Shown piece after piece: positions 8,432 through 35,573 of a DNA stretch of 40,005 nucleotides. Both the position numbers and the translations under genes were made by a program. Positions within the stretch are counted from its first letter, which is position 1. Every line of letters starts with the position of its first letter. Source of the DNA: Opitutales bacterium (GTDB lineage: Bacteria; Verrucomicrobiota; Verrucomicrobiia; Opitutales; Oceanipulchritudinaceae); assembly GCA_020831585.1 (NCBI GenBank), contig JAFIGE010000033.1, positions 1 to 40,005 of the forward strand, written 5' to 3'. A model generated the notes under the pieces. It had not been told where the DNA came from, made no database searches, and saw nothing but the letters and a program-made list of their open reading frames with translations.

Positions 8432-10873
8432 TCAGTTCCCCAATTCAAACTCCAGACGGAAAAAGCGTCTCTCCGGAGGCGGGGCGGAGAGCGTCCAGCT
8501 GTGCTCGCTTCCGTTAACGGCGTGAATGAATTCGCCGGAGGCATCGCTCCACGGGCCATTGAGTTGATCGGCGCTGGACGGGCGGATGTTCAGGCGGGCG
8601 CGCTCGCCCAGTTGCGTGGACAGGCGCAGGGAACGGTCCGGCAGGGGTTCAATCCGGGGCAACACGGGGAGAGAGACGAAGGGAAGGAAGCCGCCCGCGT
8701 AGTGCAGCATGAGGGGGGCGCGTGAGCCGGAGGCGGGGGTTGAAAGGTCGACCGGTGCATGGGGGAAATGAATGCGGTGCCAGCGTTCACCGTGCCGTTT
8801 ACCCGGCTGAGAAAGCGCACTCACGGCCGGTGGGGAAAGGGCCGTGGTCCACCATTGCAGGTTGCGCAGATGCCCGGTGAAGAAGAGGTCCGGGCGGCCA
8901 CTTTCCCCTCCGATCCACATCGGGGTCCCGGTTGTGGTGCGCACCCTCTGGGCCAGGGAGGCGCTGACGCTCTCTTCGAGGCCGTTCACAAACAGGCGCA
9001 CCCCGGTGATGTTGTCCCCGCGGTTTTCCGGATCGAAGACCACCGCGATATGGTGCCATTGGTTATTGGTTAGCGGGGTGCTGCCGATGATGAATCCGTT
9101 TTGCACTTCCACGCGAAGGGCCCGCGACGCAGGGTCGATGCGTACCACCCACGCTTCTCCTGGATTGTTCCGGCTGCCCCAGGCCACGAGAACCCCCGGT
9201 TCAGAACTGCGGAGCCAGGTGGCGAAGGTGCGGGGGGTGTTGCCTGCCGCGCCTGTGCGACCCTGAATAAGGAGATGTTGGGAGGTCGCGCCGTTGAACT
9301 GGAGGAAGCGGCCTGTGGCATCGCTCCCCCAGGCGGCCGGTGCGGAGAAGTTGATCAGGCTCGCGTGGGTCTCCCACCCGGAGTGGTCGAGCGCAGTGAG
9401 GCCCTCGGTTTGGTCTAGCGGGAGCCAACCGGCTTCGAAGGCGGGGGCTCCCGGCGGCGCGGGCGGCGTGGGCACGGCATCATCGAGGACCGTCGGCCAG
9501 GCTGTGGAGGGACGGCGCATGGTGATAAAGCGGTTTTCCATCGCGGCAACGATTGCCGGATGGGCGGCGGCCACGTTATTGGATTCGCCGATGTCGGACG
9601 GGAGGTGGTAGAGTTCCGTCGGTTCGTGCGGGTTTTGGCGCACCGCTTTCCAGTCGCCGAGCCGAATTGCCTGACCGAACTGGTCCTCGTGAAACTCCCA
9701 ATAGAGCGGGCGTTCGGTGAGTTCCGGTTGGTCGTGTCCGAGGAGCGTGGGGACCACACTCAGTCCGTCGATATCTGCTGGCGGCATCGCTCCCGCCAAC
9801 TCCGCGAGGGTGGGGAGCACATCGGGGAAATACCAGATGGCTTGGCTGACAACCCCTGTCGGCACGGTGCCCGGCCAGCGCACGAGCATGGGCGTGCGGA
9901 TGCCGCCCTCGTAGAGATCGCGTTTGCGTCCGCGGAGTTCACCGGAGCTTTGGAAGCGGGTGTCGTAGCGGTTGGCGGCCCCGTTGTCGGAGCAGAAAAA
10001 GATGATCGTCTCGCCGTCGATGCCGTGCTCCTGAAGGGTGGCGATGATGCGCCCGATATCGCGATCCATGCGGGTGATCATGGAGGCGTAGACTTTCTCC
10101 CGCTGCGTCCAGTTTGTGTTTGCCGCGTAGGGTTCCAGTTCAGGTATCTGAAAGGCCGAATGGGGGATGGTGTAGGGCAGATAAAGGAAGAAGGGCGATT
10201 CTCCCGGTGCGTGGCGGTCGATGAAACCGAGGGCGAAGTCGGTCAGGAGATCGTGCAGATAGTGCGCCTCGGTGACAAAATCCTGAAATGTTCCGGTATT
10301 TCCGGAGAGGAACTCCTTGGTTTGGTCGCGCCAGATGAAGGCGGGGTAGTGGGAGTGCGCCTGCCGCTGGTTGAGGAGGCCATACCATTCATCAAACCCC
10401 TGGAGGTTGGGAATGCCCGTGGTGCCCTCTTCGCCCAGGCCCCATTTGCCTGTGATGCCGGTCACATAGCCAGCTCCCCGCAACACCTCCGCCACGGTGA
10501 CATCCTCCGGGTGCAAGGGCACCCGCCAGTTTCCGTCGGCGTCCTGCACGCCGGAGCCGGGTGTGCCAAAGTTGCCGCGCACCCGCGTGGTGCCTGTGTG
10601 TTGGCCGGTCATGAGGACGCTCCGCGCGGGCGCGCAGACGGGGGAGCCCGCGTAGGCTTGTGTGAAGCGCATACCTTCGGCCGCCATTTGGTCGAGCACC
10701 GGTGTTTGGATGAGGGCCTGCCCGTAGGAACCCAGATCCCCGTAACCGAGGTCGTCCACCATGATGAATATCATGTTCGGGCGCGGAGCGTTTGCTTCCG
10801 AGGCCGGGAGGGTAGCGGGCGCGGATGCGAGGGCAAGCGGGAGGAGCCAGGGAAGGGAGGATCGGGGATGCAT
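8432..10873 (-). CDS. secreted sulfatase with LamG-like C-terminal region
   Basis: An arylsulfatase-type enzyme that removes sulfate esters, probably from polysaccharides, outside the cytoplasm. The 813-residue product starts with a probable signal peptide (about residues 1-24). The sulfatase domain spans roughly 32-470, with metal ligands Asp40-Asp41 (M-V-D-D-L-G-Y-G-D-L), the formylglycine motif C-A-P-A-R at 80-84 (Cys80 to be modified by a sulfatase-modifying enzyme not seen here), and G-K-W-G-L-G with Lys143. A LamG/concanavalin-like fold is likely around 500-690. The last 60-70 residues are a separate region rich in short strands. The nearest genes upstream on the same strand are two PEP-CTERM proteins, but a stem-loop separates them. 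Substrate unknown. Confidence 0.92.
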   Translation of the reverse strand: MHPRSSLPWLLPLALASAPATLPASEANAPRPNMIFIMVDDLGYGDLGSYGQALIQTPVLDQMAAEGMRFTQAYAGSPVCAPARSVLMTGQHTGTTRVRGNFGTPGSGVQDADGNWRVPLHPEDVTVAEVLRGAGYVTGITGKWGLGEEGTTGIPNLQGFDEWYGLLNQRQAHSHYPAFIWRDQTKEFLSGNTGTFQDFVTEAHYLHDLLTDFALGFIDRHAPGESPFFLYLPYTIPHSAFQIPELEPYAANTNWTQREKVYASMITRMDRDIGRIIATLQEHGIDGETIIFFCSDNGAANRYDTRFQSSGELRGRKRDLYEGGIRTPMLVRWPGTVPTGVVSQAIWYFPDVLPTLAELAGAMPPADIDGLSVVPTLLGHDQPELTERPLYWEFHEDQFGQAIRLGDWKAVRQNPHEPTELYHLPSDIGESNNVAAAHPAIVAAMENRFITMRRPSTAWPTVLDDAVPTPPAPPGAPAFEAGWLPLDQTEGLTALDHSGWETHASLINFSAPAAWGSDATGRFLQFNGATSQHLLIQGRTGAAGNTPRTFATWLRSSEPGVLVAWGSRNNPGEAWVVRIDPASRALRVEVQNGFIIGSTPLTNNQWHHIAVVFDPENRGDNITGVRLFVNGLEESVSASLAQRVRTTTGTPMWIGGESGRPDLFFTGHLRNLQWWTTALSPPAVSALSQPGKRHGERWHRIHFPHAPVDLSTPASGSRAPLMLHYAGGFLPFVSLPVLPRIEPLPDRSLRLSTQLGERARLNIRPSSADQLNGPWSDASGEFIHAVNGSEHSWTLSAPPPERRFFRLEFELGN

Positions 10874-23019: not shown

Positions 23020-26000
23020 TTAGCGGAGGACCATGCGGAAACGCCAGAAGCGGGGGCTTTCCATGTCGGTTTGAAGGTGGAGGCGGAATTGGCCGCCGCC
23101 GATGTGGGTGGCGGTGACGCCTTCGTTGGAACCGTCGAAGTTGAGGTTGGGGCTGCTTTCGAGAACGAAGTGGAAGCGGTCGGCGTAGGCGGCGGGGTAT
23201 TGGAACGCGAGGGCGTATTGGCCCGGCGGGCCGAGAGGAGAGGCGATGACGGGCGGCGGGCTGAGGTCGACGGCGACGGGTGCGCCGCTGTTGGGATCGG
23301 TGGGGTCGGTGCCGTCGAGGACTTCCTGGAGGTTGGAGATACCATCGCCATCAAGGTCGCCGAAGGGGTCGGCGTCGACGAGGGCGGGGAAGAGGAGTTC
23401 GAAGGTGTCGGGAAGGAGGTTGCCGTTGAGGTCGGGGACGGAGGGCGGCGGGAGGCGCACGAGTTCGAAGTGGATGACTTCGAGGGCGTCGGCGAAGGGG
23501 GGCGCGGTGACATCGGTGAAGCCGAGAATGTGGAGTTCGGTGCCGACAGGGAAGCGGAAGACCTGGTCGAGGCGGAAGGGGTCGCCGTTGCGGTCGAGGA
23601 GGGCGGTGGGATCGGTGGAGCCGTTGGCGAAGACGACCGGTTGCGCGCTGTCGTAGGTGGCGCTGGTGGTGAAGTAGGTGCCGGAGCGGGTGGGGCGGCT
23701 GGCAGGCAGACCGAGGATCTGCGGAAGGGCGGCCCGGGCGGCGGCGACTTCGGCAGGGGTGAGGGCGAGGTTACCCCAGTAGCTGCTGTCCTCGCCGGGA
23801 TCGAAGAGGCCGTTGCCGTTGAGGTCGCCGGGCAGGCTGCCGGTGCGGAGGAAACCACGGAGGGCATCGAGGGGCGAGGGGAAGAGGGCGCGGCTCTCGC
23901 CGGTAGCGGCGGCGGAGAGGTAGTAGACCTCGTGGGCAAGGGTGAGGAGGGTTTCGATCTGGGGCGTGGGCGGGGCTTCGAGAGCGGTGCGCACGGTTTC
24001 GAGAAGATGGCCAAAATCCCAACCGTCGGTGTGGAGAAAGGCGGGCGGGGGTCCCGCAAAGGTGCGGAGGGCTTCGATTTCGTCGGGGGTGGCGCGGAAG
24101 AGGGCATCAGCCGGAGCGATTGCGGCGTCGGCGAGGGGGCGGGTGATTTCGGTGGGGCGACCGGGTGTGAGAGAGAGGCGCTGGTCCGGGCCGAGCATGC
24201 CGCGGCCCCGGAAGATCTCTTCAAGAACCAATTCGACGAGGAGAAGGTGAAGGGTGCTCGTGACGCTGAGGTCAATGGCTTCAAGGGGGCGGGGCTGGCT
24301 GTAGTGGGCTTGGGCCGCATCGACCCAGAGGGGCGCTTCATCGAGGAGGTCCAGGCCGCTGAAGGCGAAGGGCACGGGGCCGAGCTCAGTCGGGGGCACG
24401 CTCACGAGGGCAACCAGTTCGCGTCCCGCGCGGGGGTTGTTCTCGTCGGGATCGTAGATTTGGTAGGTGGCGGGCGTGCCGACCCAGTGACCCGTTTGCC
24501 CGGCGGTCACGGGCACCCGCGAAAAGTCGGCATAGGCGGCGAGGGGGAGGGCCGAGACGGTATCGGCTGTGCCGAGGAGATTACCGTCGGCATCGTGGAG
24601 GCGCAGCTGCGGGCTGTCGGGGGAGTTCGGCATGGCACTGCGCAGGGTGTAGGGATCGACGGGCGAGAGCGGGCGGGGGGTCACTCGGAGATCAATGGTG
24701 TTGCCAAAGAAGGCGTCGAAGATGGGGGCGGCACCCGGAGGGCCGTCGGGGCGTTCGGGGAAGTCGAAGTCCTGGATGGGGCTGGTGCCGGTGAGGATTT
24801 CGAGAAGATCGCTGACCCCGTCGCCGTCGCCATCGCTGCCGCTGTTCACGGGATCGAGACCGTAGAGGACTTCGATCCAGTCGGGGACACCATCCTCGTC
24901 GCTGTCCATTTGCTCAGGCGGGAAGGCGAAGGTGTAGGTGCCGGAGCGAATGGGGGTGGTGACGCCGTCGAAGCTGCGGCCATACCACTGGAGGGTGAAG
25001 GCCTGGTATTGCCAGCCCGGTGCTTGGGCGGCGAGGCTGGTCCATCCGGCACTTTCGCCAATGCGCCAGAAGACGCTGACGCCCGGCGGCGGTTGCAGGG
25101 TGGGGCGCACGGCGATGCGGTAGTGACCCGGGGGAGGGCTGACGGTGGCTTCGCCGATGGTCCGCCCGACAGGGGCGATGGCTCCGGTGGCGGAGGCATA
25201 GCTGGGGAGCCCGGCGACGTTGGAGGGCAGCTGGTTGGCGAGAATGAAGGTGGTGCCGGCGGGGGCGGTGCCCAGGGTGGCTCCGCCGAAGGGACCGAGG
25301 CCGGTGGTTTCGTTGACGAAGGTGGCCCGCTGGATCTGGATTAAACCGAGGGCAAGGCTGCCGTTGCGTGTCCAGTCGCCGGCGGCGTAGGCCCCGAGGA
25401 GGACGGCGTCGGTGCTCAGGAGGGGATTGGCCGAATAGGCAAAGACGTTCGCCCGCGCGGTGGCGCTGCGGATTGCGGGGAGAGTGGCGCTGCCGTTGTG
25501 GGCGTAGGCGCTGCCATTCCAGGTGTAGCGCTCGGTGCCCGTGCTGCGCCCGTCGGGGCCGCTGCGGAGAAAGTGGAAATCGCCGTTTTGCGTTACGAGA
25601 ACGCCGCGAAAGGACTGCCCGGCGGGGGGCGAAAAAAGCGGGCCGGGAGTGGGGTTACTTTGACCGTTGAAGGCGAAGAGCTGGGCCTCACCGGTCGTGT
25701 AGACCACCATGAGGGCCTGCGTGCCGCCCGCTGCCCGCACGGTCGAGACCTGCTCGGCAGGGTGCGGGAGGACGAAGGTTTGGAGGGGCTCGAAGGCGAG
25801 GATGGGCGTGGCGCGGATCCAGCGGAGGGCCTCGTCGCCGGGCCGCCAGAAGACAAACTGCACGGGCGAGGTGGTGGCCGCTCCGTCGAAATCGGCGTGG
25901 ACAAAGCGCGCGCCGGGGGGGATACCGGCGATTTCGGCCTGCACGGGATAACCGGCTGCGCCGAGGTTGGTGATGCGGAAAATATCCGCCCCGGCACCAC

Positions 26001-26607
26001 TGTGGAAGCTGCCCATGGCGCTGTTGGCAAGACCGCTGATGCGGCCGGGGCGGAGCATCGGGGCGGTGGGGATACTGTTGTGGTAGACCGCGCTGGTCGC
26101 GGGAAATCCCGTGAACCGGACGATGGAGCGGGCCTGCGGAGGCGAACCGTTGGCCTGATAGCCAATAATCAATTCCATCAGAGTGGAGCCTCCAAAGGCC
26201 TCTGCGGCGACAACGCCACCCGGTCCGACGTAACTCGAGAAAATCGATTGCGGCGCGCCACTCGGCGAGATCGAGTTGAGGGCGAAGATGTTGACGCGGT
26301 TGGAGGCGACACCGGCGACGGCCATGGAAATGTGGTTGCCGAGGAGCATTTCGCCCATGGCGAGGCTGTCGACGGGGGCAACACCGCTGTAGTGCGGTCC
26401 GCCCCAGGCGAGGGAGCCGTCGACGGCACCGTGAGCCACCCGGTAGGCTCCGGTGGCCTTGTCGACGACGACCCAGTCGATGCGGCCGTTGTTGTTGAAG
26501 TCGCCCGTACCAAACCACTCGTAGAGGCCCTCACGCACGGGATCGACGGCATGAAGCGGGATGGAGAGGAGGAGAAGGGCGGCGAGGAAGGTAAGGTGGC
26601 GTTGCAT
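23020..26607 (-). CDS. giant exported protein 3: FG-GAP-like N-terminus, thrombospondin type 3-like repeats
   Basis: An exported 1195-residue protein of unknown function. ATG at 26607 was chosen over GTG at 26619 because GAGG lies six bases before it and a clean signal peptide (about 1-19) follows. Residues 25-450 begin with G-D-F-N-N-N-G-R-I-D and look like FG-GAP/VCBS propeller repeats. Acidic thrombospondin type 3-like calcium repeats lie near 567-610 (D-S-D-E-D-G-V-P-D-W and D-G-D-G-D-G-V-S-D) and near 1056-1105 (D-L-D-G-D-G-I-S-N). A dockerin-like G-D-L-N-G-N-G-L-F-D lies near 924. The end, F-W-R-F-R-M-V-L-R, is like the C-termini of many surface proteins in this phylum. No sorting signal is visible. 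Last gene of the three-gene block, 23 bp after the second. Confidence 0.8.
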   Translation of the reverse strand: MQRHLTFLAALLLLSIPLHAVDPVREGLYEWFGTGDFNNNGRIDWVVVDKATGAYRVAHGAVDGSLAWGGPHYSGVAPVDSLAMGEMLLGNHISMAVAGVASNRVNIFALNSISPSGAPQSIFSSYVGPGGVVAAEAFGGSTLMELIIGYQANGSPPQARSIVRFTGFPATSAVYHNSIPTAPMLRPGRISGLANSAMGSFHSGAGADIFRITNLGAAGYPVQAEIAGIPPGARFVHADFDGAATTSPVQFVFWRPGDEALRWIRATPILAFEPLQTFVLPHPAEQVSTVRAAGGTQALMVVYTTGEAQLFAFNGQSNPTPGPLFSPPAGQSFRGVLVTQNGDFHFLRSGPDGRSTGTERYTWNGSAYAHNGSATLPAIRSATARANVFAYSANPLLSTDAVLLGAYAAGDWTRNGSLALGLIQIQRATFVNETTGLGPFGGATLGTAPAGTTFILANQLPSNVAGLPSYASATGAIAPVGRTIGEATVSPPPGHYRIAVRPTLQPPPGVSVFWRIGESAGWTSLAAQAPGWQYQAFTLQWYGRSFDGVTTPIRSGTYTFAFPPEQMDSDEDGVPDWIEVLYGLDPVNSGSDGDGDGVSDLLEILTGTSPIQDFDFPERPDGPPGAAPIFDAFFGNTIDLRVTPRPLSPVDPYTLRSAMPNSPDSPQLRLHDADGNLLGTADTVSALPLAAYADFSRVPVTAGQTGHWVGTPATYQIYDPDENNPRAGRELVALVSVPPTELGPVPFAFSGLDLLDEAPLWVDAAQAHYSQPRPLEAIDLSVTSTLHLLLVELVLEEIFRGRGMLGPDQRLSLTPGRPTEITRPLADAAIAPADALFRATPDEIEALRTFAGPPPAFLHTDGWDFGHLLETVRTALEAPPTPQIETLLTLAHEVYYLSAAATGESRALFPSPLDALRGFLRTGSLPGDLNGNGLFDPGEDSSYWGNLALTPAEVAAARAALPQILGLPASRPTRSGTYFTTSATYDSAQPVVFANGSTDPTALLDRNGDPFRLDQVFRFPVGTELHILGFTDVTAPPFADALEVIHFELVRLPPPSVPDLNGNLLPDTFELLFPALVDADPFGDLDGDGISNLQEVLDGTDPTDPNSGAPVAVDLSPPPVIASPLGPPGQYALAFQYPAAYADRFHFVLESSPNLNFDGSNEGVTATHIGGGQFRLHLQTDMESPRFWRFRMVLR

Positions 26608-26630
26608 GGAGGGCCTCACGGTGGTGGGGT

Positions 26631-29600
26631 TTATTGCGGGAGGATGTCGACCTCCCCGGCGGGGATGATGTAGGCCAGTTCGCGGCGTTCGTCGAAGACC
26701 GCAAGGAGGTAGGCATAGCGCGCCCCGAACGTCATGGGCAGGGTGTCGAGCAGGTAAAGATCAAACCAGGCTGAGGGCGTTTCCGGACTGCCTCCACTGT
26801 AGACCGAGGCGATGAAGGGATCGTAGATGCGGATGGCAGCGCAGGGGCTGGTGGTGGTGGGGGAGTCAAGGTTGGCATTGATGGCAGCGATCTGCTCGAT
26901 GAGGGGGCCGGCCTGCACGACTTCGCCGGATACATGGGGAAAGAGGTTGTTGGCTACCTGATATCGATAGAGCATTACGGGCAATAGATTGCGGTCACCG
27001 TTTTGGAAGATGTGGTCTTCGGGAGCGCCAAACGCCGGTATGTAGAAGACGGGACTGGTGGGATCGACGACATCGGGCGTGCATGGGCGGATGCTGGGGG
27101 CCCGCCCGATACGCACGCCCACGCGGTTGTAGCCGGGCATTTGGTTGTGCAGGAAGACGGGTTCGATGAGGCTGTTCCAATCGGCAGCCTCGATCTGGTC
27201 CGGGAGTGGACGCGCGGGCCAGGCGACTTCCGGCAGTTCCACTGCGGGCGGTTCCTGCCAGGCAAACTCGATGCGGTTGCTGAATTGGCTATTGAGGCCA
27301 TTCGTGCCGCGCGCACGCACACGCACAAAGTAGTTGGAGCCATCCTTCACGGGTATGACGACGGAGAACTCGGGACCATTGCCCCCGAAGTCGTGGCCGA
27401 CGATGCCGGTGAAAAAGCGACGATATAGAATGATCACTCCTTCGCTGTCCAGATCCTGAGGAATGACGCTGTTGGTGGTGTTGAGGGCGGGGGAGAGGTC
27501 TTCGGGCGGGCGGTTTCGGTCTTCGGAAATGTCGAGGGTGAAAATCTCGATGCCGGTGGGCGGGGTGAACCAGCGCAGGAGGACGTGCGGTTCGTCGTTG
27601 ATGAGGAGCGGGCGGGCGCGGGCGAGCACGGGGGCGGGCGGCGGCTTGCCCTGGTTGTTGAAGCAGCCGAGATCTTTGATGGGGCCACCGTTGCCGTGCT
27701 CATCAAAGAACTGCACGAAGTAGCAGACGCGCGCGCCGGTGGGGTTGAGAATAAGATCGGTGACAACAAAGAAGACGGGGTTGGGGGCGGGACCGTCGAA
27801 AACACCCTGGCGGACAAGGCCGAGGGGGCCGTTGTCGACGGTGCGGTAGAGGCGCCACTCCTGTGTGCTGACAGGGGCTTCGATTTCGATTTCAACCGGG
27901 TTGATGTCGCCGTCGGGGGTGAGGACTTCGTGGATGGCGCAATCGGGGAATTCTCCGCGAATGATGCGCGGGCGGCAGTCGCGCGTGGCGATATATTCAT
28001 TGCGGTGAAGGATGCGCAAAAGAGTACTCGAAAAGCTGTGGGTGACGATGTTCGAGACCCTGCCGTCGCTTTGGGTGACGCGGGCCCGCACCTCCCAGGG
28101 GCCGTCGTAGTCGCCGCGTGCGGCGGAGGCTTTGACTTCCAGCTTTTCCAGGGGATTGGTGGGGAAGGGTTCTACGGCGATCAGTTCCTCCGTCTGGCTG
28201 CGCGGGTTGTAGAGCCAAAATTCGGCGAGAACGAGTTCGCCGGGGTTCTCGGCGCCCCGCGTTACGGAAAACTCAAAGCGGAGTTCATCGGGATTTTGCG
28301 TGAAGGGACCGGAGACGGTTGTGTCCGCGCTGCGGGGAGTTTCCAGCTTAGGCTCGCAGCAGCGGATGGAGATCAAGCCGCCGCCCCCCTCGGGTGCCAC
28401 GCGGTCGCGCAAAACGCCGAAGCCGGGGGCGCTGTGGGCGGAGAAATTGCCCCCGCAGGCCGAGTTGTCGACAGCCACGACGGTGTACCAGATAGTGCGG
28501 CCGGCATCGTCACCGGGCGCGCCGTATTGCGGATTCTCACCGATCTGCGGAGCGAAGGCCCCGACATTGTCGACAACGCTGAGGGTGGTGCGGGTGGGGT
28601 CGTGGGCAATGGGACCAGCGACGCGGTATTGGGCCGGAAGGCTGAGCGGGTCTTCCAGTTGGAGGGCGTTGAGGTCGTCAAAGGAGCGCCAGCGGAAGAC
28701 GTAGTAGGCCACCGGGTTGTCCTCCTCGCGCACCTGCTGCCACTGGATGCGCAGGCGCTGGCTGGAAGTCTGTGCACCGGTGTTGAAGGCGAAGGTATTG
28801 GTCACGAAGACGCGCGACGGGGCGTCGGGGGGAAAGCGGTCGCAGGGGCGCAGAAGGGTGCCACAGGAGGTGCTGCCGAGGCGGCCCAGGATGTCTTCAG
28901 CGACGCTGAAGTAGTAGAACTGCGCGCCGGGGAGGAAGACGTTGTGGACGTCGAAGGGCTGACCCTCGTCGTCGAAGGCGAGGCCGTTGTGGCGGTTGTC
29001 GTCCTGGGAGTAGAAGTCGGTGTTGCCGGGCACGAAATTGCTCACGGTGGCATTGGTGTAGTAGCGGCGCGGGAGGATGGGGAGCCGGTTGACCTGAGCG
29101 ACGTTGGGGAAGTGGTCGGCGACCTCGGCACGCCAGTCGATTACGCCGATGCCGGCCAAAGGATCGGCGCAGGTGTGCCAGCCGCGGGCTTCGGCAAAGG
29201 CACGGGTGACCCGGTAGACATTGAAGCCGCGGAGAAGGAGCGACTGTTGCCGGAGGGCGTCGGGGGACATCCACCGAAGCTTGAGGTTCATGTGGCTGGT
29301 GACATCGCTGAGGGGCAGGACCTCGCCGCTCTCGCGGGAGTTGGGCACTTCGACGGGCGCGCCGGGGGCATGGAGGACGACGGGTTCGCCCGCGAGCACG
29401 GTGACCCGCCCGATGACGCTTGTGCAATCGGTTGTGCCCGGAAGGCATTCGCGCAGCTCGAAGGTCGTTGCTCCGGGGCCGATGGGGGCGGCGAAACCGG
29501 TGCCGAGGGCGAGGGCCGCACCGGGATGGGCGCGTCCGAGGAAGGTGAGGGCTTGGAAAAGTTCGTCGCTCCCGAATGACTCGGCCACGAGGACGGAAAA

Positions 29601-30038
29601 CATCATCTCCGGATCGACTGCCGGTCCCGGAGAGTATTCGGCGAAAAAGGTGGCGACCGCCTCTTGGAGGGCATCAAGGTCTTGGCCGAGGTGGCGGGAA
29701 CGGTTGAAGAGGAGGCGCGTGGCCCCCGGATCGATCTGCGGGGTGAGGATGCCGAGGAGGCTGTAGTCCGCCGGTGCGTCGGCATCGCCGGGCTTGCTGT
29801 AGACGGCGTAGGCGCGGTCGCGGAGGAGATCGGGCCGCGTGGCCATCCAGGAGAGGTAGGCCCAGTTGGAACCGTCGAGCGGACTCACGGCGGGCGTGCC
29901 TACGACGACGAGGGTCGCCTCGGGGGCCTGCGCCGGAGCGCTCGGGGAGGAAGCGAGGGCCGCCACCAGAGAAAGGGCGGTAAGGAACGGGCGGAAGGGG
30001 CGCGTCATGGGAAAAGGGATACGGGGTGGATTAGACAT
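26631..30038 (-). CDS. giant exported protein 2: fibronectin-like repeats
   Basis: An exported protein of 1135 residues (1125 if the ATG at 30008 is used). A signal peptide follows the second Met (M-T-R-P-F-R-P-F then a hydrophobic run to A-Q-A). The rest is a chain of beta-rich modules that resemble fibronectin type III repeats: L-R-W-M-S-P with G-F-N-V-Y-R-V, I-Q-W-Q-Q-V with Y-Y-V-F-R-W, and L-R-W-F-T-P. Several cysteine pairs are present. No enzyme motif or sorting signal was recognised. The ATG at 30038 overlaps the stop of the preceding giant gene by 8 bases, suggesting translational coupling, so it was preferred although no Shine-Dalgarno is seen. Function unknown. Confidence 0.78.
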   Translation of the reverse strand: MSNPPRIPFPMTRPFRPFLTALSLVAALASSPSAPAQAPEATLVVVGTPAVSPLDGSNWAYLSWMATRPDLLRDRAYAVYSKPGDADAPADYSLLGILTPQIDPGATRLLFNRSRHLGQDLDALQEAVATFFAEYSPGPAVDPEMMFSVLVAESFGSDELFQALTFLGRAHPGAALALGTGFAAPIGPGATTFELRECLPGTTDCTSVIGRVTVLAGEPVVLHAPGAPVEVPNSRESGEVLPLSDVTSHMNLKLRWMSPDALRQQSLLLRGFNVYRVTRAFAEARGWHTCADPLAGIGVIDWRAEVADHFPNVAQVNRLPILPRRYYTNATVSNFVPGNTDFYSQDDNRHNGLAFDDEGQPFDVHNVFLPGAQFYYFSVAEDILGRLGSTSCGTLLRPCDRFPPDAPSRVFVTNTFAFNTGAQTSSQRLRIQWQQVREEDNPVAYYVFRWRSFDDLNALQLEDPLSLPAQYRVAGPIAHDPTRTTLSVVDNVGAFAPQIGENPQYGAPGDDAGRTIWYTVVAVDNSACGGNFSAHSAPGFGVLRDRVAPEGGGGLISIRCCEPKLETPRSADTTVSGPFTQNPDELRFEFSVTRGAENPGELVLAEFWLYNPRSQTEELIAVEPFPTNPLEKLEVKASAARGDYDGPWEVRARVTQSDGRVSNIVTHSFSSTLLRILHRNEYIATRDCRPRIIRGEFPDCAIHEVLTPDGDINPVEIEIEAPVSTQEWRLYRTVDNGPLGLVRQGVFDGPAPNPVFFVVTDLILNPTGARVCYFVQFFDEHGNGGPIKDLGCFNNQGKPPPAPVLARARPLLINDEPHVLLRWFTPPTGIEIFTLDISEDRNRPPEDLSPALNTTNSVIPQDLDSEGVIILYRRFFTGIVGHDFGGNGPEFSVVIPVKDGSNYFVRVRARGTNGLNSQFSNRIEFAWQEPPAVELPEVAWPARPLPDQIEAADWNSLIEPVFLHNQMPGYNRVGVRIGRAPSIRPCTPDVVDPTSPVFYIPAFGAPEDHIFQNGDRNLLPVMLYRYQVANNLFPHVSGEVVQAGPLIEQIAAINANLDSPTTTSPCAAIRIYDPFIASVYSGGSPETPSAWFDLYLLDTLPMTFGARYAYLLAVFDERRELAYIIPAGEVDILPQ

Positions 30039-33000
30039 CGACGTCGAAGTCGCAGTCGTCGTTGACGCATTTCACGCGGACGGTGGCGCTGCCTTCGAAG
30101 CAGAAGAAGAAGCAAAACTCGACCCAGAGGCGGCCCCGACCGGAGAGGACGAACTTATTTCCGCTCTTGCCGCCGAGGAGGGTGATTTCGCCCCCGATAT
30201 CGAAGATGCAGAGGACCTCGCCCTGGATTTTCATGTAGAGCTTGGCCCCGAACTCAGGGTTTTCGATGAAGACCCAGATGCCGCTGCCGATGGTGCCGGT
30301 GATGGCGAGAAAGCAGGATGCGGGGATACCAAGGATCTCGTTCAGCGGGTAGCTCATTTCCCCGTAAACGTAGCCCCCGGTGAAGGGCGGGGAGCCGAGA
30401 ATGGAGGCGACGTCCTTGTCCACGAGTTTGAGGGGATCAATGGAGCAGGTTTTTCCAAAGAAGAAGCCGACGCGGATGGCCTTGCGGTTGAACTCGGCGC
30501 GGGCGCGGGCGCCGACGTAGTTTTCAAGGGCGCCAAACATGGCGGTGGCTCCGAAGTCAGTGATACCGAAGCGTTCAAATTGCGCTTTGCCCCCGGCAAG
30601 TTCAACGGCACCGCCCATTCCGAGGAGGCCGTCGGTCTCATGGAAGGTGAACTTCATGCCCACGTTGAGACGCATCTCACCGAGCCAGGAGGCCTCGATG
30701 TTGTCCGCGCCCAGGCGCACTTCGATCATGTAGGAACCGGCCGGTCCCCAGCTGCAGGCTCCGGTGCCGTCGGATTGGCGTGTATCGATTTGCAGATACA
30801 TGTCGGCGGAGAGGTCGGTCATGAGGGCGAGGCGCGCGCTCGTATCAAGGCGGAGGCTGCGCAGGGTGTCGTTTTGCATACGCGCGTAGCCATCGATGGC
30901 GGAGACCTGAAAGGCGGAGTTGGCGGCCAGCTGGCCGAGGGCGTTGGTCCACTTGGGTTCGGTTTGTTCCATGACCTGGATGAGGAGGTCGCGGGTGATG
31001 CGGTTGGCCACGCGGAAGCCCGAGTCGAGGTTGCCGCGGAGGGTGTCGTCGGTGTCGTAGAGGAATTGGCGCAGGGCTCCGAGGATGTCGGCGGTGAAGG
31101 GGCTGGCCCGCACGCGGATGACGAACCGTTCCATGATCTTCTCCTCAAAGACGGAGCGGTTGAACTGGGTGAAGTGCTGCTGCGCCTGGGAGGCGTTCAG
31201 GGCGATCTGCTGAGCGCGGACCTTTACGCTTTCGGCGATGACCTCCCCCTGTGCGACCAAGGGAAAGGGCGGGTTGGCATCGTCGATAATCTTTTTGAGT
31301 TTTTGCGTGAGCTGGCCGTTGGAGGTGCGCACGGAGTCCTGCAAGGCCACGAGGAGGGCGCGGGATTCGAGGAGGCTATCGCGTGAGGTGGCGAGGGAGG
31401 GGCCGTGGCGCTGCATGAGGTTGGTCACCTGCGCATCAAGGGCGGGGCCGAGGAGGCTGGCCACGGCGGCGCCGGTCTGCGGGCTGCCCACAACCATGAG
31501 GGCTTTGGCAAAGGCGGCGGTGTTGGGGTAGTTTTGCGCCGGACCCGGGTTAAAGAGGGCGCCGCTGCCGGAGCCGATGAATTGATCGAGGGCGAGGATG
31601 CTCGCGCCGAGTGTATTGTAGACTTCGATACGAAGGGCGGTGAGCAGGGTGGCGTTGGCCGGGAGGGGGAGGGGTGCGGTCGAGCTGGAGCCGGCGAGAT
31701 TGGCCGTGGCGGTGCCGATGAGGGTGTTGGCGATGGCGTTTTCGAGGGTCGTGAGAGGGCCGCCGGGGTTGGGACTGCCGGCGGCGTGGTCGGCCTTTAA
31801 CTGATCGTAGGCCGTGGCAATGATGGGCGCGATAACGACCTCCCTGTAGCGGTCGAGGAGCGGATCGATACGGTCGCCCGTGATGCGCCCGAGGCGCTGG
31901 AGCCCATCGGTGACGACAGGGCCGTTGATGACCTGGTTGAGGACATGCTGGAGGCCACCGGCGGGCGCGCCGTCGAGGACTTCATCGACGAAACTGAAGG
32001 AGGTGTTGCTGAGGGAGGCGGAGGGCAGACCGTCGAGCTTCATGCCGAACGTGATGTCGACCCATTCAGCGCTCATGCGGTCGATCTGGTGACCCACGCT
32101 GAAGATGAGGAGATCGTTCACTTGTGGCACCGGGGAGGTCCAGACGCGCGCACCGGAGATAAACTCAACGGGGTAATCAAAATCGATGATGTTGGCGACT
32201 TTTCGGCGGGCATAGACGCGGTATTGGCTGTATGGATCGGTCGCCGGGTTGGTTGTTGGATCAGGGAGGCGATGCGGTGCCTCGTTGCGGTAGCGGAGGA
32301 GGCGGTTGGTCGGGGTGCCGGCGAGGTCGGTGGGGAAACCGTGGTGGGCGAGGTCGAAGTCGGGGCTTTTGAAAAACGTCGTTCCCCCGGCCTCCCAGCC
32401 ACCCATGAGGTGGAGGCGGGCGACGCCCGACCCAACCGGCGGCTCAAAGGGCCGGGCGAAGGTGTGCACGTGGATGTCGAGCTTCTCGAAGAAGGGCACG
32501 GTCATGCGCGCGGCAAAGGAGATGAAGCCGCGCGGGGGCGGTGCGGCACCGGCGTCGGCGTTGGCCGTGGCGTAATCGTTGAAGTAGGCTTCGGAAACGG
32601 GGTTGATGGAGTATTTTTCGTTTCCCGGACCGGCGAGGGTGAGGAGCGAGGGCAGGGCGAAGCGCGAGGTCACGCTGTAAGTGGAGCTGGCGGGGACGAT
32701 GTTGCCGTTGGGGAACCAGCCCACGGTGCCGTAGAGCGGTGCGGGCACGTGGTGCATGTTCGTCTCGATGGCCATGACGAGGATGGCATTTCCGCCGGGT
32801 GCGCAGCCGTCCTCTTTCTCGATTTCGAGGGTGTAGGGTTTGAACTCGGCATCCCAGTAGGCGAGGGTCTGGATCTCACCGGAGTCGGGGATCGTTGCTT
32901 TCTTCAAGTCGCCGAGGCAGGTGAGGAGCATCTCTTCAAAGGACTGGATGAACTGCGACGGGTAGGGCACAGAAATGGTGCCGACCGTGGCGGAAATCAC

Positions 33001-33483
33001 ATTTTCTGAGCTAAGGAAGCCGAGGGAAAGGTTGGAGAAGGCCACGGGAAAGCCGTAAATGACGAGGTTGGCCGGGGGCTCGGCGGCGTCGTGGATGCCG
33101 GATACGCCGGAGTAGCGCACGTAGTATTTGGAGCGGTCCTTGAGCAAAAAGCTGGAGGACAATTGGTTGCCAATTCTGGAAACCCCGAAGGCGGAACCGG
33201 CGTGTTCGGAAACGCGGAGGTTGATGCCAGCGTAATCGAGGAGACCCTGGGCGTAAGCTGCGGAGAAGAAGCCGGGGCGCTCGGGCGGGGCGGCGGGATT
33301 ATCGGCGGAGAAGCCGCTCAGGTGGACGACACCGGGGGCCAGGCGGAGGTTACCGACCGGAACGCGAAGAAAATGCCCGGAAGCATGGAAGGTCCCTTGG
33401 GTGAAACGGCTTGTGGTGGAGTGGGCGAAGCGTTTTGTGAAGGTGGAGGAGCCCGGGTCGGGATCATTGATAAAGCCCCACAT
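30031..33483 (-). CDS. giant exported protein 1, C-terminal part (after frameshift)
   Basis: The C-terminal 1150 or so residues of a large exported protein whose N-terminal part is encoded one frame away at 33318-35573. Restoring one C in the run at 33505-33509 joins the frames as I-L-T-P-P-V-R-P-I-N-R and gives a single 1847-residue product; the span 30031-35573 is 5543 bases, one short of a multiple of three. The ATG at 33483 is simply the first in this frame and has no Shine-Dalgarno or signal peptide. The middle (about 31000-32000) is helix-rich; the last 250 residues alternate hydrophobic and polar residues like beta strands and end in a Cys-rich acidic tail. No known family recognised. 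Confidence 0.7.
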   Translation of the reverse strand: MWGFINDPDPGSSTFTKRFAHSTTSRFTQGTFHASGHFLRVPVGNLRLAPGVVHLSGFSADNPAAPPERPGFFSAAYAQGLLDYAGINLRVSEHAGSAFGVSRIGNQLSSSFLLKDRSKYYVRYSGVSGIHDAAEPPANLVIYGFPVAFSNLSLGFLSSENVISATVGTISVPYPSQFIQSFEEMLLTCLGDLKKATIPDSGEIQTLAYWDAEFKPYTLEIEKEDGCAPGGNAILVMAIETNMHHVPAPLYGTVGWFPNGNIVPASSTYSVTSRFALPSLLTLAGPGNEKYSINPVSEAYFNDYATANADAGAAPPPRGFISFAARMTVPFFEKLDIHVHTFARPFEPPVGSGVARLHLMGGWEAGGTTFFKSPDFDLAHHGFPTDLAGTPTNRLLRYRNEAPHRLPDPTTNPATDPYSQYRVYARRKVANIIDFDYPVEFISGARVWTSPVPQVNDLLIFSVGHQIDRMSAEWVDITFGMKLDGLPSASLSNTSFSFVDEVLDGAPAGGLQHVLNQVINGPVVTDGLQRLGRITGDRIDPLLDRYREVVIAPIIATAYDQLKADHAAGSPNPGGPLTTLENAIANTLIGTATANLAGSSSTAPLPLPANATLLTALRIEVYNTLGASILALDQFIGSGSGALFNPGPAQNYPNTAAFAKALMVVGSPQTGAAVASLLGPALDAQVTNLMQRHGPSLATSRDSLLESRALLVALQDSVRTSNGQLTQKLKKIIDDANPPFPLVAQGEVIAESVKVRAQQIALNASQAQQHFTQFNRSVFEEKIMERFVIRVRASPFTADILGALRQFLYDTDDTLRGNLDSGFRVANRITRDLLIQVMEQTEPKWTNALGQLAANSAFQVSAIDGYARMQNDTLRSLRLDTSARLALMTDLSADMYLQIDTRQSDGTGACSWGPAGSYMIEVRLGADNIEASWLGEMRLNVGMKFTFHETDGLLGMGGAVELAGGKAQFERFGITDFGATAMFGALENYVGARARAEFNRKAIRVGFFFGKTCSIDPLKLVDKDVASILGSPPFTGGYVYGEMSYPLNEILGIPASCFLAITGTIGSGIWVFIENPEFGAKLYMKIQGEVLCIFDIGGEITLLGGKSGNKFVLSGRGRLWVEFCFFFCFEGSATVRVKCVNDDCDFDVDV

Positions 33484-35573
33484 GAGACGGTTGATGGGTC
33501 GGACGGGGGCGTGAGGATGGGAATGAAGGCAAGATTGCCGCGGGAAATGAGGCCCCCGTCCGGGGTGAAGAGGAGGCGGTTGTTCGCCGGTGTGAGGGTG
33601 AAATTGCCCGCCGAGAAGGGAGAGGCGGAGCATCCGTTTTCGGGGTCGGGCGGACAGCTTTGCAGGTAAATGACGTTGATCGCGGTCACACCTTCGAGCC
33701 TGCTCTTCCCCGGGTCGAGGTCGATGACGTCATTCTCCACGACCATCTGCCCGCCGCCCATGGTGATGATGGCATCGTAGGGAAAGTGCGTGCGGAAGGT
33801 GCCGGGACCGAAGGCGAAGGCGGCGGTGAGGCGCGCGGACTGGTTGAAGGGGTGGGGTGTGATATGGGCGGAGGAACTGGCCAGTCCGGTAAGCTGGCGG
33901 TAGTAGCCGTCGTTGGAGCGCTTGATCTTTTGCGCGGAAGGGATGGGCGCAGCCGCGAGGTCGGCCCAGGCTTTTTCCTGGGTGTGGTGGGCGTTGCCAG
34001 TGGTCTCCAGATCGATGCGACCCTGATCGATTTCCCAGGTGATGCTGAGGCACTCGATCTGCACCGGTTTGGTCTCCTCGGCCACGTAGACCGGCGCGGC
34101 GGGGTTGCTGAAAGTCAGGCTGTTGACGATGGGGCGCAGTTCCTGTGTGAGGGCAATATTCAGGAAGGGCAGGAAAGCCATCCCCAGCTTATCACCGGGA
34201 TTGTTGGTGATGGTCATGCCTCCCGGGGGCATGAGGAGGATCGCACTGGAGACACCGCTTTGGCTGAGCTGGATGAGGGACCGGAGGTAGTCGATGCCCA
34301 GAATCGTTTCGCGGTCGGGCGTTTGCGGGGGCTGCACGATCACCGGGTCCATACCGTTGAAGACGGCGCGCCCGTCCGGCAGAAGGCGCACAGGGAAGGT
34401 TTGACCGGGCACGAGGGTGTGGCCGGATTTCGCTCCTGTGATGTGGGCGACATCCACCTGGAGGGTGCAGTTGATCTCCGTGCCCGAGACGGTATTGCCC
34501 GAGGCAGGGTTGTTTTGCACCGAGAGGAGCGTCGTCTGGATTGCCCCAAAATCGAGCCGCCCATTGAAGTGGAGAATGCGTAGATTGGAGGTCTGGCGGG
34601 TGTCAGCTGTGACGACAAGCGTCGGAAGAGCCCCGAACGCGGGGCGCTCCGCGTGCGAGAGCGTGACCACCACGTAGTGGCTGCGCCAGGAGTCGATTTG
34701 CTGGGCCGGGCGGAGGCGGATTTGCTGGGTGCCGGAAAAGGTGTGCGGGGCTTTGGGGGTGCCCGAGTTGAAGGCGGCCATGGCCACGGTGTAATTCCAG
34801 CTCGGATCGGGGAGCAGGGGGACCTCCACCGGGCTGCCCGACTGCGTGTTAAAGAGCCGCACCTCCCAGCTCACGGCGATGTTACTGACGGGGGGAGTTG
34901 TGGAGGCGAAACTATCGTAGCGCCGCATTTCGTAGGGCACCGAGACGATGGCGTGATCCTGCGTTGGGCTGTCGTCGATGAGAAACCGGCGGGTGTAGCT
35001 GGCGTTGCCGGTAGTGCGGGCGAGGACATTGAGTTCGAGGTCACTCGAAACGGTGCTCGTGAAGTGGTAGAAGCGCCGGAATTCGGAGTAGGCGGGGGCG
35101 GCGGAGTGGTTTAGCCAAAGAAGCAAACTACCCACCTGTGTCTGAATCTGGAGTTGCGCTTCCACGCGGTAGCGGCGGTGGTGATCGAGCTGTGCCGTCG
35201 GGGTGATCGCGCCGGAGAAACCGATCACGGGTGGTTGGGGCGTTCCACCGGAATAAAAGACGGGCCAGGGAGTGGAAGGGGTGTTGAAGGCCCCGAACAC
35301 CGCATCCGTCCCCTCTTCCAGAAGCCGGAAGCGCACCCGGTAGTTGCGCTGCGGCTCCGAGCTGGCCCCAAAAAAGGAAACGGCCACGCTCACCGGAATC
35401 CGGTCGCGGTTGTAACTGGGGCCCGCGTTGTCCGCATCGGAGGCAATGACGTATTCCGTCCCCGTCAGGTTGACCGTGCCCATCGTCGCGGTGGCCCCAT
35501 TGAGCAGGTGTGTGGTCAAGATACCTGTACAGAAGAGAAGCGCTGCGATTTTCCAAAATCGGACAGTTTTCAT
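33318..35573 (-). CDS. giant exported protein 1, N-terminal part (before frameshift)
   Basis: Starts at ATG 35573 with a clear signal peptide (M-K-T-V-R-F-W-K then a hydrophobic run to about residue 28); GAGG lies ten bases upstream. The following 650 residues are beta-rich repeats of unknown type. As read, the frame runs for 751 residues, but from about residue 690 it becomes a proline/serine-rich sequence unlike the rest, while the next frame continues sensibly. The real product is probably the fusion with 30031-33504. It is the first gene of the three-gene block. Confidence 0.7.
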   Translation of the reverse strand: MKTVRFWKIAALLFCTGILTTHLLNGATATMGTVNLTGTEYVIASDADNAGPSYNRDRIPVSVAVSFFGASSEPQRNYRVRFRLLEEGTDAVFGAFNTPSTPWPVFYSGGTPQPPVIGFSGAITPTAQLDHHRRYRVEAQLQIQTQVGSLLLWLNHSAAPAYSEFRRFYHFTSTVSSDLELNVLARTTGNASYTRRFLIDDSPTQDHAIVSVPYEMRRYDSFASTTPPVSNIAVSWEVRLFNTQSGSPVEVPLLPDPSWNYTVAMAAFNSGTPKAPHTFSGTQQIRLRPAQQIDSWRSHYVVVTLSHAERPAFGALPTLVVTADTRQTSNLRILHFNGRLDFGAIQTTLLSVQNNPASGNTVSGTEINCTLQVDVAHITGAKSGHTLVPGQTFPVRLLPDGRAVFNGMDPVIVQPPQTPDRETILGIDYLRSLIQLSQSGVSSAILLMPPGGMTITNNPGDKLGMAFLPFLNIALTQELRPIVNSLTFSNPAAPVYVAEETKPVQIECLSITWEIDQGRIDLETTGNAHHTQEKAWADLAAAPIPSAQKIKRSNDGYYRQLTGLASSSAHITPHPFNQSARLTAAFAFGPGTFRTHFPYDAIITMGGGQMVVENDVIDLDPGKSRLEGVTAINVIYLQSCPPDPENGCSASPFSAGNFTLTPANNRLLFTPDGGLISRGNLAFIPILTPPSDPSTVSCGALSMIPTRAPPPSQNASPTPPQAVSPKGPSMLPGIFFAFRSVTSAWPPVSST

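Follow-up and report, generated by a model that had tools for sequence, protein, structure and literature searches.

Several described systems resemble parts of a three-gene block found at positions 23020-35573 of a 40,005-nucleotide stretch (hereafter the window) from an Opitutales bacterium of the Verrucomicrobiota (contig JAFIGE010000033.1). The block lies on the minus strand and consists of three large genes for exported proteins, called p1, p2, and p3. Outer-membrane porin-type barrels (OccK/OprD, OmpT, and LamB), the kind that stands at the top of the structural rows for p1, share with the predicted fold of its C-terminal end long up-and-down antiparallel strands and an alternating hydrophobic face, and with part of the p1 family a hydrophobic or aromatic tail. 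Unlike porins, p1 has more than 1000 N-terminal residues, a helical region of ~360 residues, and conserved cysteines, and it gives no significant Foldseek E-value. Type Va autotransporters and two-partner secretion systems resemble the block in having an N-terminal exported part, a helical segment, and a C-terminal beta domain, or linked exported partners. However, p1 has no Pfam match to their barrels and a different strand number, and its two partners are ~1100-1200 amino acids long. Fibrillar adhesins and other surface proteins with TSP3, FG-GAP, or FN3 modules, such as MtsD, are also large exported proteins carrying such modules, whereas the block encodes a three-protein set with a barrel-like subunit and with LPXTG in no p1 or p2 tail and in only 1/62 p3 tails. 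Lastly, the giant genes of Planctomycetes-Verrucomicrobia-Chlamydiae (PVC) bacteria (West-Roberts et al., as cited in PMC12057145) are, as that source summarizes them, single giant genes with transmembrane helices. They share with the block very large exported proteins in PVC bacteria but differ from its fixed three-gene set of roughly 1100-2200 amino acids each.

The block belongs to an autonomous three-gene cassette of Verrucomicrobiota that occurs in multiple copies, of which it is one. Its genes are arranged as follows.

p1, 30031-35573, minus strand: ~1847 codons in two frames, a frame-broken copy.
p2, 26631-30038, minus strand: 1135 amino acids, with a signal peptide, fibronectin-III-like modules, and conserved cysteines.
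p3, 23020-26619, minus strand: 1199 amino acids from a GTG, or 1195 from an ATG four codons later, with a signal peptide and TSP3-type repeats.

The genes for p1 and p2 overlap by 8 bases, and 23 bases separate p2 from p3, counted from the p3 ATG. The original prediction, read from the letters of the window, had placed three large exported proteins on one strand with this overlap and gap, each with a signal peptide. The coordinates confirm the layout, and every N-terminus is signal-peptide-like. Across the family, a simple rule of our own calls a signal peptide in a majority of members (57/63 p1, 69/78 p2, and 60/71 p3).

The arrangement recurs in dozens of distinct loci, well beyond chance. 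The collection holds 123 loci, 101 of them distinct by their end sequences, although some are still close relatives. Among the distinct loci, p2 comes directly after p1 on the same strand in 79/84 testable cases, and p3 follows p2 in 77/79. On inspection, the two p2-p3 exceptions come down to a frame overextended at its 5' end (L076) and a fragmentary p3 (L160). The five p1-p2 exceptions are L131-L133, L100, and Roseibacillus persicicus (L134). In the last of these hosts (L134, L166, L167), p1 stands alone on one contig, p2 and p3 are paired on a different contig, and there is also a second, complete cassette; retention of all three parts after scattering argues for a joint function. Unlinked single homologues, which would have spoken against the original prediction, did not turn up apart from this one dispersed set. 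L131-L133 come from related Verrucomicrobiales bins; in L131, the order p2-p3-p1 is seen whole, and in L132 and L133, p3 lies directly before p1. By clustering, a protein kinase gene is near p1 in all three, and an extracytoplasmic function (ECF) sigma factor gene sits beside p1 in L132. In a Pontiellaceae bin, p1 and p2 are separated by a gene (L100:5829-12203) for a 2124-residue protein that looks exported and has no match to p1, p2, or p3.

The three genes also share a phylogenetic distribution. In a search of 133 related genomes, with at most five candidates scored per genome, the C-terminal part of p1 and p2 were both present in an identical set of 17. p3 was found in 31 genomes. In the same 17, its best E is no higher than 4.1e-17; the other 14 have weak matches (best E between 1.8e-8 and 9.5e-6) limited to residues 537-641 or 1010-1172, which lie around the two TSP3 regions. 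Long p3 matches beyond the TSP3 regions occur only in the 17 genomes with p1 and p2. When genomes were sampled evenly across the phylum and no more than two candidates were scored per genome, the cassette was present in 22/387 genomes and 14/197 genera, a distribution that is patchy as well as widespread. The expectation that gene order and approximate lengths would be shared by several genera was strongly borne out. When 84,980 prokaryote species were scanned with one peptide pattern, 96 stretches came back, and a p1 relative is encoded in 70 of them. Hosts of the pattern-scan loci are labelled as Verrucomicrobiota or Kiritimatiellae groups, except for L117 and L160 (labelled 'bacterium' only). 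Some metagenome-bin labels may be wrong, such as Akkermansia muciniphila for L105, and a single-pattern scan does not prove absence from other phyla. The cassette is testable because cultured hosts exist, named in their records as R. persicicus KCTC 12988 and Luteolibacter marinus NBU1238.

The genome containing the window has seven p1, seven p2, and seven p3. Six cassettes are contiguous; the seventh would be split between two contig ends, with p1 on contig 181 and the p2-p3 pair on contig 142. By arithmetic, seven cassettes of ~12 kb equal ~1.6% of the genome, which is a large investment. The five own copies that were compared have p2 identities of 29-35% and fall on different branches of the p2 tree, where one of them (L052) groups with Verrucomicrobiales copies. 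The repertoire therefore looks old and may include transfer. In Mantel tests on 59 cassettes, the pairwise distance matrices of the three proteins correlate with one another (r 0.88, 0.86, and 0.91), and none of 1000 permutations rose above 0.13. Pairs of gene trees have 26-31 well-supported splits in common (of 38-45 per tree). These results bear on a reading in which the three are independent surface proteins, co-transcribed for convenience without forming a physical complex. Their different architectures suit such a reading, but correlated divergence, equal copy numbers, and the presence of all parts even when dispersed exceed operon convenience, and we regard it as quite unlikely. The argument is tempered in one respect: the distance correlation reflects common descent, which explains part of it, as well as any contact among the proteins.

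Several of the own copies are broken. p1 is frame-broken or stopped in 5/7 (contigs 183, 126, 36, 181, and 143) and p2 in 1/7, while p3 is open in 7/7. In the window, the two p1 frames and the passage between them are as follows.

p1 N-terminal frame, 33318-35573, minus strand: 751 amino acids.
p1 C-terminal frame, 30031-33633, minus strand: 1200 amino acids.
p1 frame change (approximate), 33528-33543, minus strand: the family profile passes from one frame to the other.

Profile positions 13-678 lie in one frame and 666-1812 in the other, with the switch near 33.53-33.54 kb. Other genomes also show breaks, again mostly in p1; many loci were collected via p1, so the count of breaks is biased. 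The breaks differ in profile position between copies, and in-frame stops occur as well as frame changes. Programmed frameshifting or phase variation was therefore rejected as a general cause. GSDH, RhaA, and MlaE in the window match their Pfam models nearly end to end. The p1 breaks may be assembly error or real decay. The broken frames, together with the unrelated sites of the own copies, could point to repetitive DNA that is decaying or selfish, with the block as a duplication of little function. This is extremely unlikely given the open p3 frames and the 58 distinct full-length p1 frames in other contigs and genomes (1745-2229 amino acids, median 1857). Moreover, frames of more than 1000 codons are kept although some two thirds of p2 residues differ between the own paralogues, and neighbour clustering and Pfam scans found no mobile gene fixed beside the block. 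p2 is also without a match in the plasmid records searched, and the p1 C part without one in the phage records searched. Within the p1 family, a subgroup (L055, L061, L081, and L083) reaches ~2225 residues through a longer N part, compared with the usual 1850.

From its N-terminus, p1 comprises a signal peptide, a beta-rich N part, a conserved beta core, a helical region, and a C-terminal beta domain. Three stretches in its C part are the following.

Short beta strands of p1 directly before the helical region, 32023-32217, minus strand: partly included in model alignments with outer-membrane barrels.
p1 helical region, 30934-32016, minus strand: ~360 amino acids of predicted long helices.
p1 C-terminal domain, 30034-30933, minus strand: predicted antiparallel beta-meander of ~16 strands, outer-membrane-barrel-like, the best-conserved part of p1.

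Two structures were predicted, both for the C part of the window's own p1. One covers 1150 amino acids (27 sequences; predicted local distance difference test score, pLDDT, 73.6; predicted template modeling score, pTM, 0.51) and the other the last 736 residues (67 sequences, pLDDT 82.4, pTM 0.76). The models show short strands, ~360 residues of long helices, and then ~16 antiparallel strands, mostly of 11-15 residues with mainly short turns between them. The beta core before the helical region lies within the model, but the fold searches barely covered it. In a second-look structural aligner, outer-membrane barrels rank first for both models, with Z up to 14.6 (top row of the 736-residue model: Z 14.6, root-mean-square deviation (rmsd) 11.1 Å, 271 aligned). 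The best porin row in Foldseek for the same model is OmpT (prob 0.96, E 0.019). Conservation of the C-terminal domain, the last ~300 residues of p1, is 0.59 versus 0.40-0.47 in the other regions compared. By thresholds of our own choice, the domain holds 18 amphipathic strand-like windows in 300 amino acids, against maxima of 9-13 per 300 elsewhere. An outer-membrane-type C-terminal tail is present in 47/82 distinct p1, 0/75 p2, and 0/62 p3; this motif (a hydrophobic or aromatic last residue plus alternating positions) was defined after inspecting p1 tails, with p2 and p3 as its only control. Judging from the models and the sequence features together, the p1 C-terminal domain is probably an outer-membrane barrel.

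Several observations weigh against a p1 barrel or against a co-inherited surface complex built on it. The barrel alignments have an rmsd of 9-12 Å and template modeling (TM) scores of ~0.3 by target length, values that fall short of demonstrating a closed barrel. With the 736-residue model, no Foldseek row reaches E <= 0.001, hence no barrel match is significant, and the top row is lipovitellin (E 0.012), with porins next. Strands 504-517 and 559-598 of the model show little contrast between faces. The tail motif, defined on p1 itself, is missing from 35/82 p1 tails, and p1 carries conserved C-terminal cysteines, which are unusual in porins. Since p1 is broken in five of the seven own copies, some copies may not work. 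Finally, pairs of gene trees have 9-16 conflicts among well-supported splits, so the shared history is imperfect and partners may sometimes be exchanged.

The lipovitellin row raises the alternative that p1 ends in a soluble, amphipathic sheet that binds lipid, of the lipovitellin or apoB type, and that the cassette handles lipids or other hydrophobic matter. The succession of beta, helical, and long antiparallel beta parts is reminiscent of the large lipid transfer proteins. Ranked by E-value, the Foldseek rows for the 1150-residue model begin with ApoB100 and lipovitellin (E 1.5e-4, 2.4e-4, and 4.2e-3), those for the shorter model begin with lipovitellin, and the helical region has apolipoprotein or coiled-coil-type Pfam matches in some p1 relatives. 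However, the ApoB100 and lipovitellin rows have TM scores of 0.03-0.13 and an rmsd above 30 Å, which gives no support for a shared fold, and the matches to apolipoproteins stand among numerous helical proteins of unrelated kinds. No vitellogenin-type Pfam domain occurs in 27 p1 members, where only apolipoprotein and apoLp-III helical families of this kind appear. A lipid-binding sheet, which also leaves the outer-membrane-type tail unexplained, is very unlikely. Searching the viral structure library brought up no match at E <= 0.001.

If the domain is a barrel, p1 could instead be a new kind of translocator, in which the barrel, together with the helical segment, exports both the p1 N part and the partners p2 and p3 as a self-contained secretion system. 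The N part would then be autotransporter-like and p2 and p3 two-partner-like, afterwards released or kept at the surface. The order of N part, helical segment, and C-terminal beta domain with its outer-membrane-type tail fits this arrangement, as do the equal copy numbers and the lack of another fixed gene found nearby. Ushers also appear among the weaker Foldseek rows (FimD prob 0.97, E 0.073). Nevertheless, 27 p1 members match 13 Pfam families at E <= 0.01, none of them an autotransporter barrel or TpsB family, and the ~16 or more strands compare with 12 in classical autotransporters. An N part of more than 1000 residues with conserved cysteines would also be hard to thread. A translocator is accordingly unlikely.

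The partner proteins carry recognizable modules in a minority of relatives. At E <= 0.01, fn3 matches 3/30 p2, and TSP3 and FG-GAP_3 each match 11/29 p3. Apart from these modules, no named adhesive domain is among the Pfam matches of p2 and p3. Two stretches stand out in the window's p3.

First TSP3-type stretch of p3, 24769-24909, minus strand: residues 571-617, with a short match to the MtsD model far under the cut-off.
Second TSP3 repeat of p3, 23293-23358, minus strand: residues 1088-1109, PF18884, 26.0 bits versus a cut-off of 25.

The TSP3 match of p3 is the sole one above the Pfam cut-off within the window's own p1, p2, and p3. The match of p3 to the NCBIfam model of MtsD, a cell-cell cohesion protein, covers a short TSP3 region only (26.7 of 800 bits). 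Pfam, NCBIfam, and PADLOC recognize none of the three proteins as a whole. In the window, p1 drew no row, p2 gave just a sub-threshold DUF7728 stretch, and p3 gave only the TSP3-type stretches and two weaker sub-threshold NCBIfam rows (Amuc_1099 and CglD). With matches of this kind only, assignment to a known family was rejected. In profile searches against PDB sequences, the p1 C part hit many generic helical proteins and p2 had two weak rows (best E 0.041), whereas p3 and the p1 N part had no row. Matches of p3 to eCIS_core (2/29, best E 0.0072) and T4 gp19 (1/29, E 0.0078) were judged to be chance. A Tc-type toxin complex was considered because the linked proteins are large and have FG-GAP modules. 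Neither SpvB/TcB-type nor VRP1-type Pfam families occur in the full family lists (members of p2, p3, and the p1 C part) or in the Pfam scan of the p1 N part in the window. Lipobox-like signals occur in only 4 p1, 3 p2, and 4 p3. No C-terminal hydrophobic stretch was found in 63 p1, 70 p2, and 62 p3, which fits the favored reading given below. LPXTG is missing from p1 and p2 tails and restricted to the single p3 tail mentioned above, and the letters PEP in 6/62 p3 tails come without a hydrophobic stretch; C-terminal sorting signals were rejected on these grounds. A literature search, with most subscription papers out of reach, found no title or abstract describing the three-gene set.

Earlier claims about architecture and function fare unevenly against these searches. 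The helical middle and conserved C-terminal cysteines of p1 hold, and the fibronectin, FG-GAP, and TSP3 modules hold for a minority of relatives, but the window's own three proteins show only TSP3 above the Pfam cut-off. The statement that no enzyme, toxin, transporter, or sorting motif was recognized is qualified, as to transporters, by the predicted porin-like beta-meander at the end of p1, itself without a significant Foldseek match.

We favor a surface complex in which p1 anchors p2 (fibronectin-like) and p3 (FG-GAP/TSP3) for recognition or adhesion, and we put the chance of this at about even. The three proteins would be made together and exported by Sec, consistent with the signal peptides seen. 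The p1 C-terminal beta domain is predicted to insert in the outer membrane as a barrel, and the helical segment and large beta-rich N part may serve as plug, stalk, or platform. p2 and p3, with its FG-GAP-like and calcium-type TSP3 repeats, would dock on p1 as the outward part. Each diverged paralogue might recognize a different ligand, such as a polysaccharide, a particle, or a neighbouring cell. The copies may be switched on under different conditions, since a minority adjoin a regulator gene. The surface complex of the original prediction is thus better grounded than before by co-inheritance, the 7:7:7 copies, and the outer-membrane-like p1 domain, while complex formation, surface location, and any role in adhesion, envelope, or polysaccharide handling are still a matter of inference. 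If the favored complex is real, the cassette is a candidate glycan-capture or cell-contact system of Verrucomicrobiota, which are known to degrade complex polysaccharides. A bolder formulation, tentative and somewhat unlikely, is an undescribed self-contained outer-membrane machine of Verrucomicrobiota. In it, a giant barrel protein would display or export two partners, with about seven diverged cassettes here, each of its own specificity. No curated family scanned covers p1 or p2.

The neighbourhood of the cassette varies between loci. The survey clustered 601 neighbouring frames and ran Pfam on 58 upstream and 60 downstream genes (within 800 bases) and on 60 more distant genes hand-picked from the first 100 of 153; it found no constant fourth gene. 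A LuxR-type regulator is directly upstream in 5/58 loci, a small number, and the family appears at most once each in the downstream and distant-gene tables. A few copies lie next to ECF sigma factor or protein kinase genes, or next to a histidine kinase of the cyclic-nucleotide-binding type (family scans for representatives, clustering for their relatives). These neighbours suggest separate control of some copies. In the window, the flanking genes are ordinary: glucose/sorbosone dehydrogenase and L-rhamnose isomerase genes (by Pfam) lie upstream of the block, and downstream is what we take to be a HisI-like gene. The frame at 8432-10873 (813 amino acids), presumably a secreted sulfatase-like protein, clusters with similar neighbouring frames. 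Long frames on the opposite strand overlie the three genes (for example, 757 amino acids at 23071-25344) and are taken as chance frames of G+C-rich DNA. One cluster of small proteins adjoins the cassette in L105, L109, L120, L137, and L148, lying downstream of it and on its strand in three of these loci, and upstream of it on the opposite strand in the remaining two. Scanned singly, the small proteins of L105 and L109 match DUF1573.

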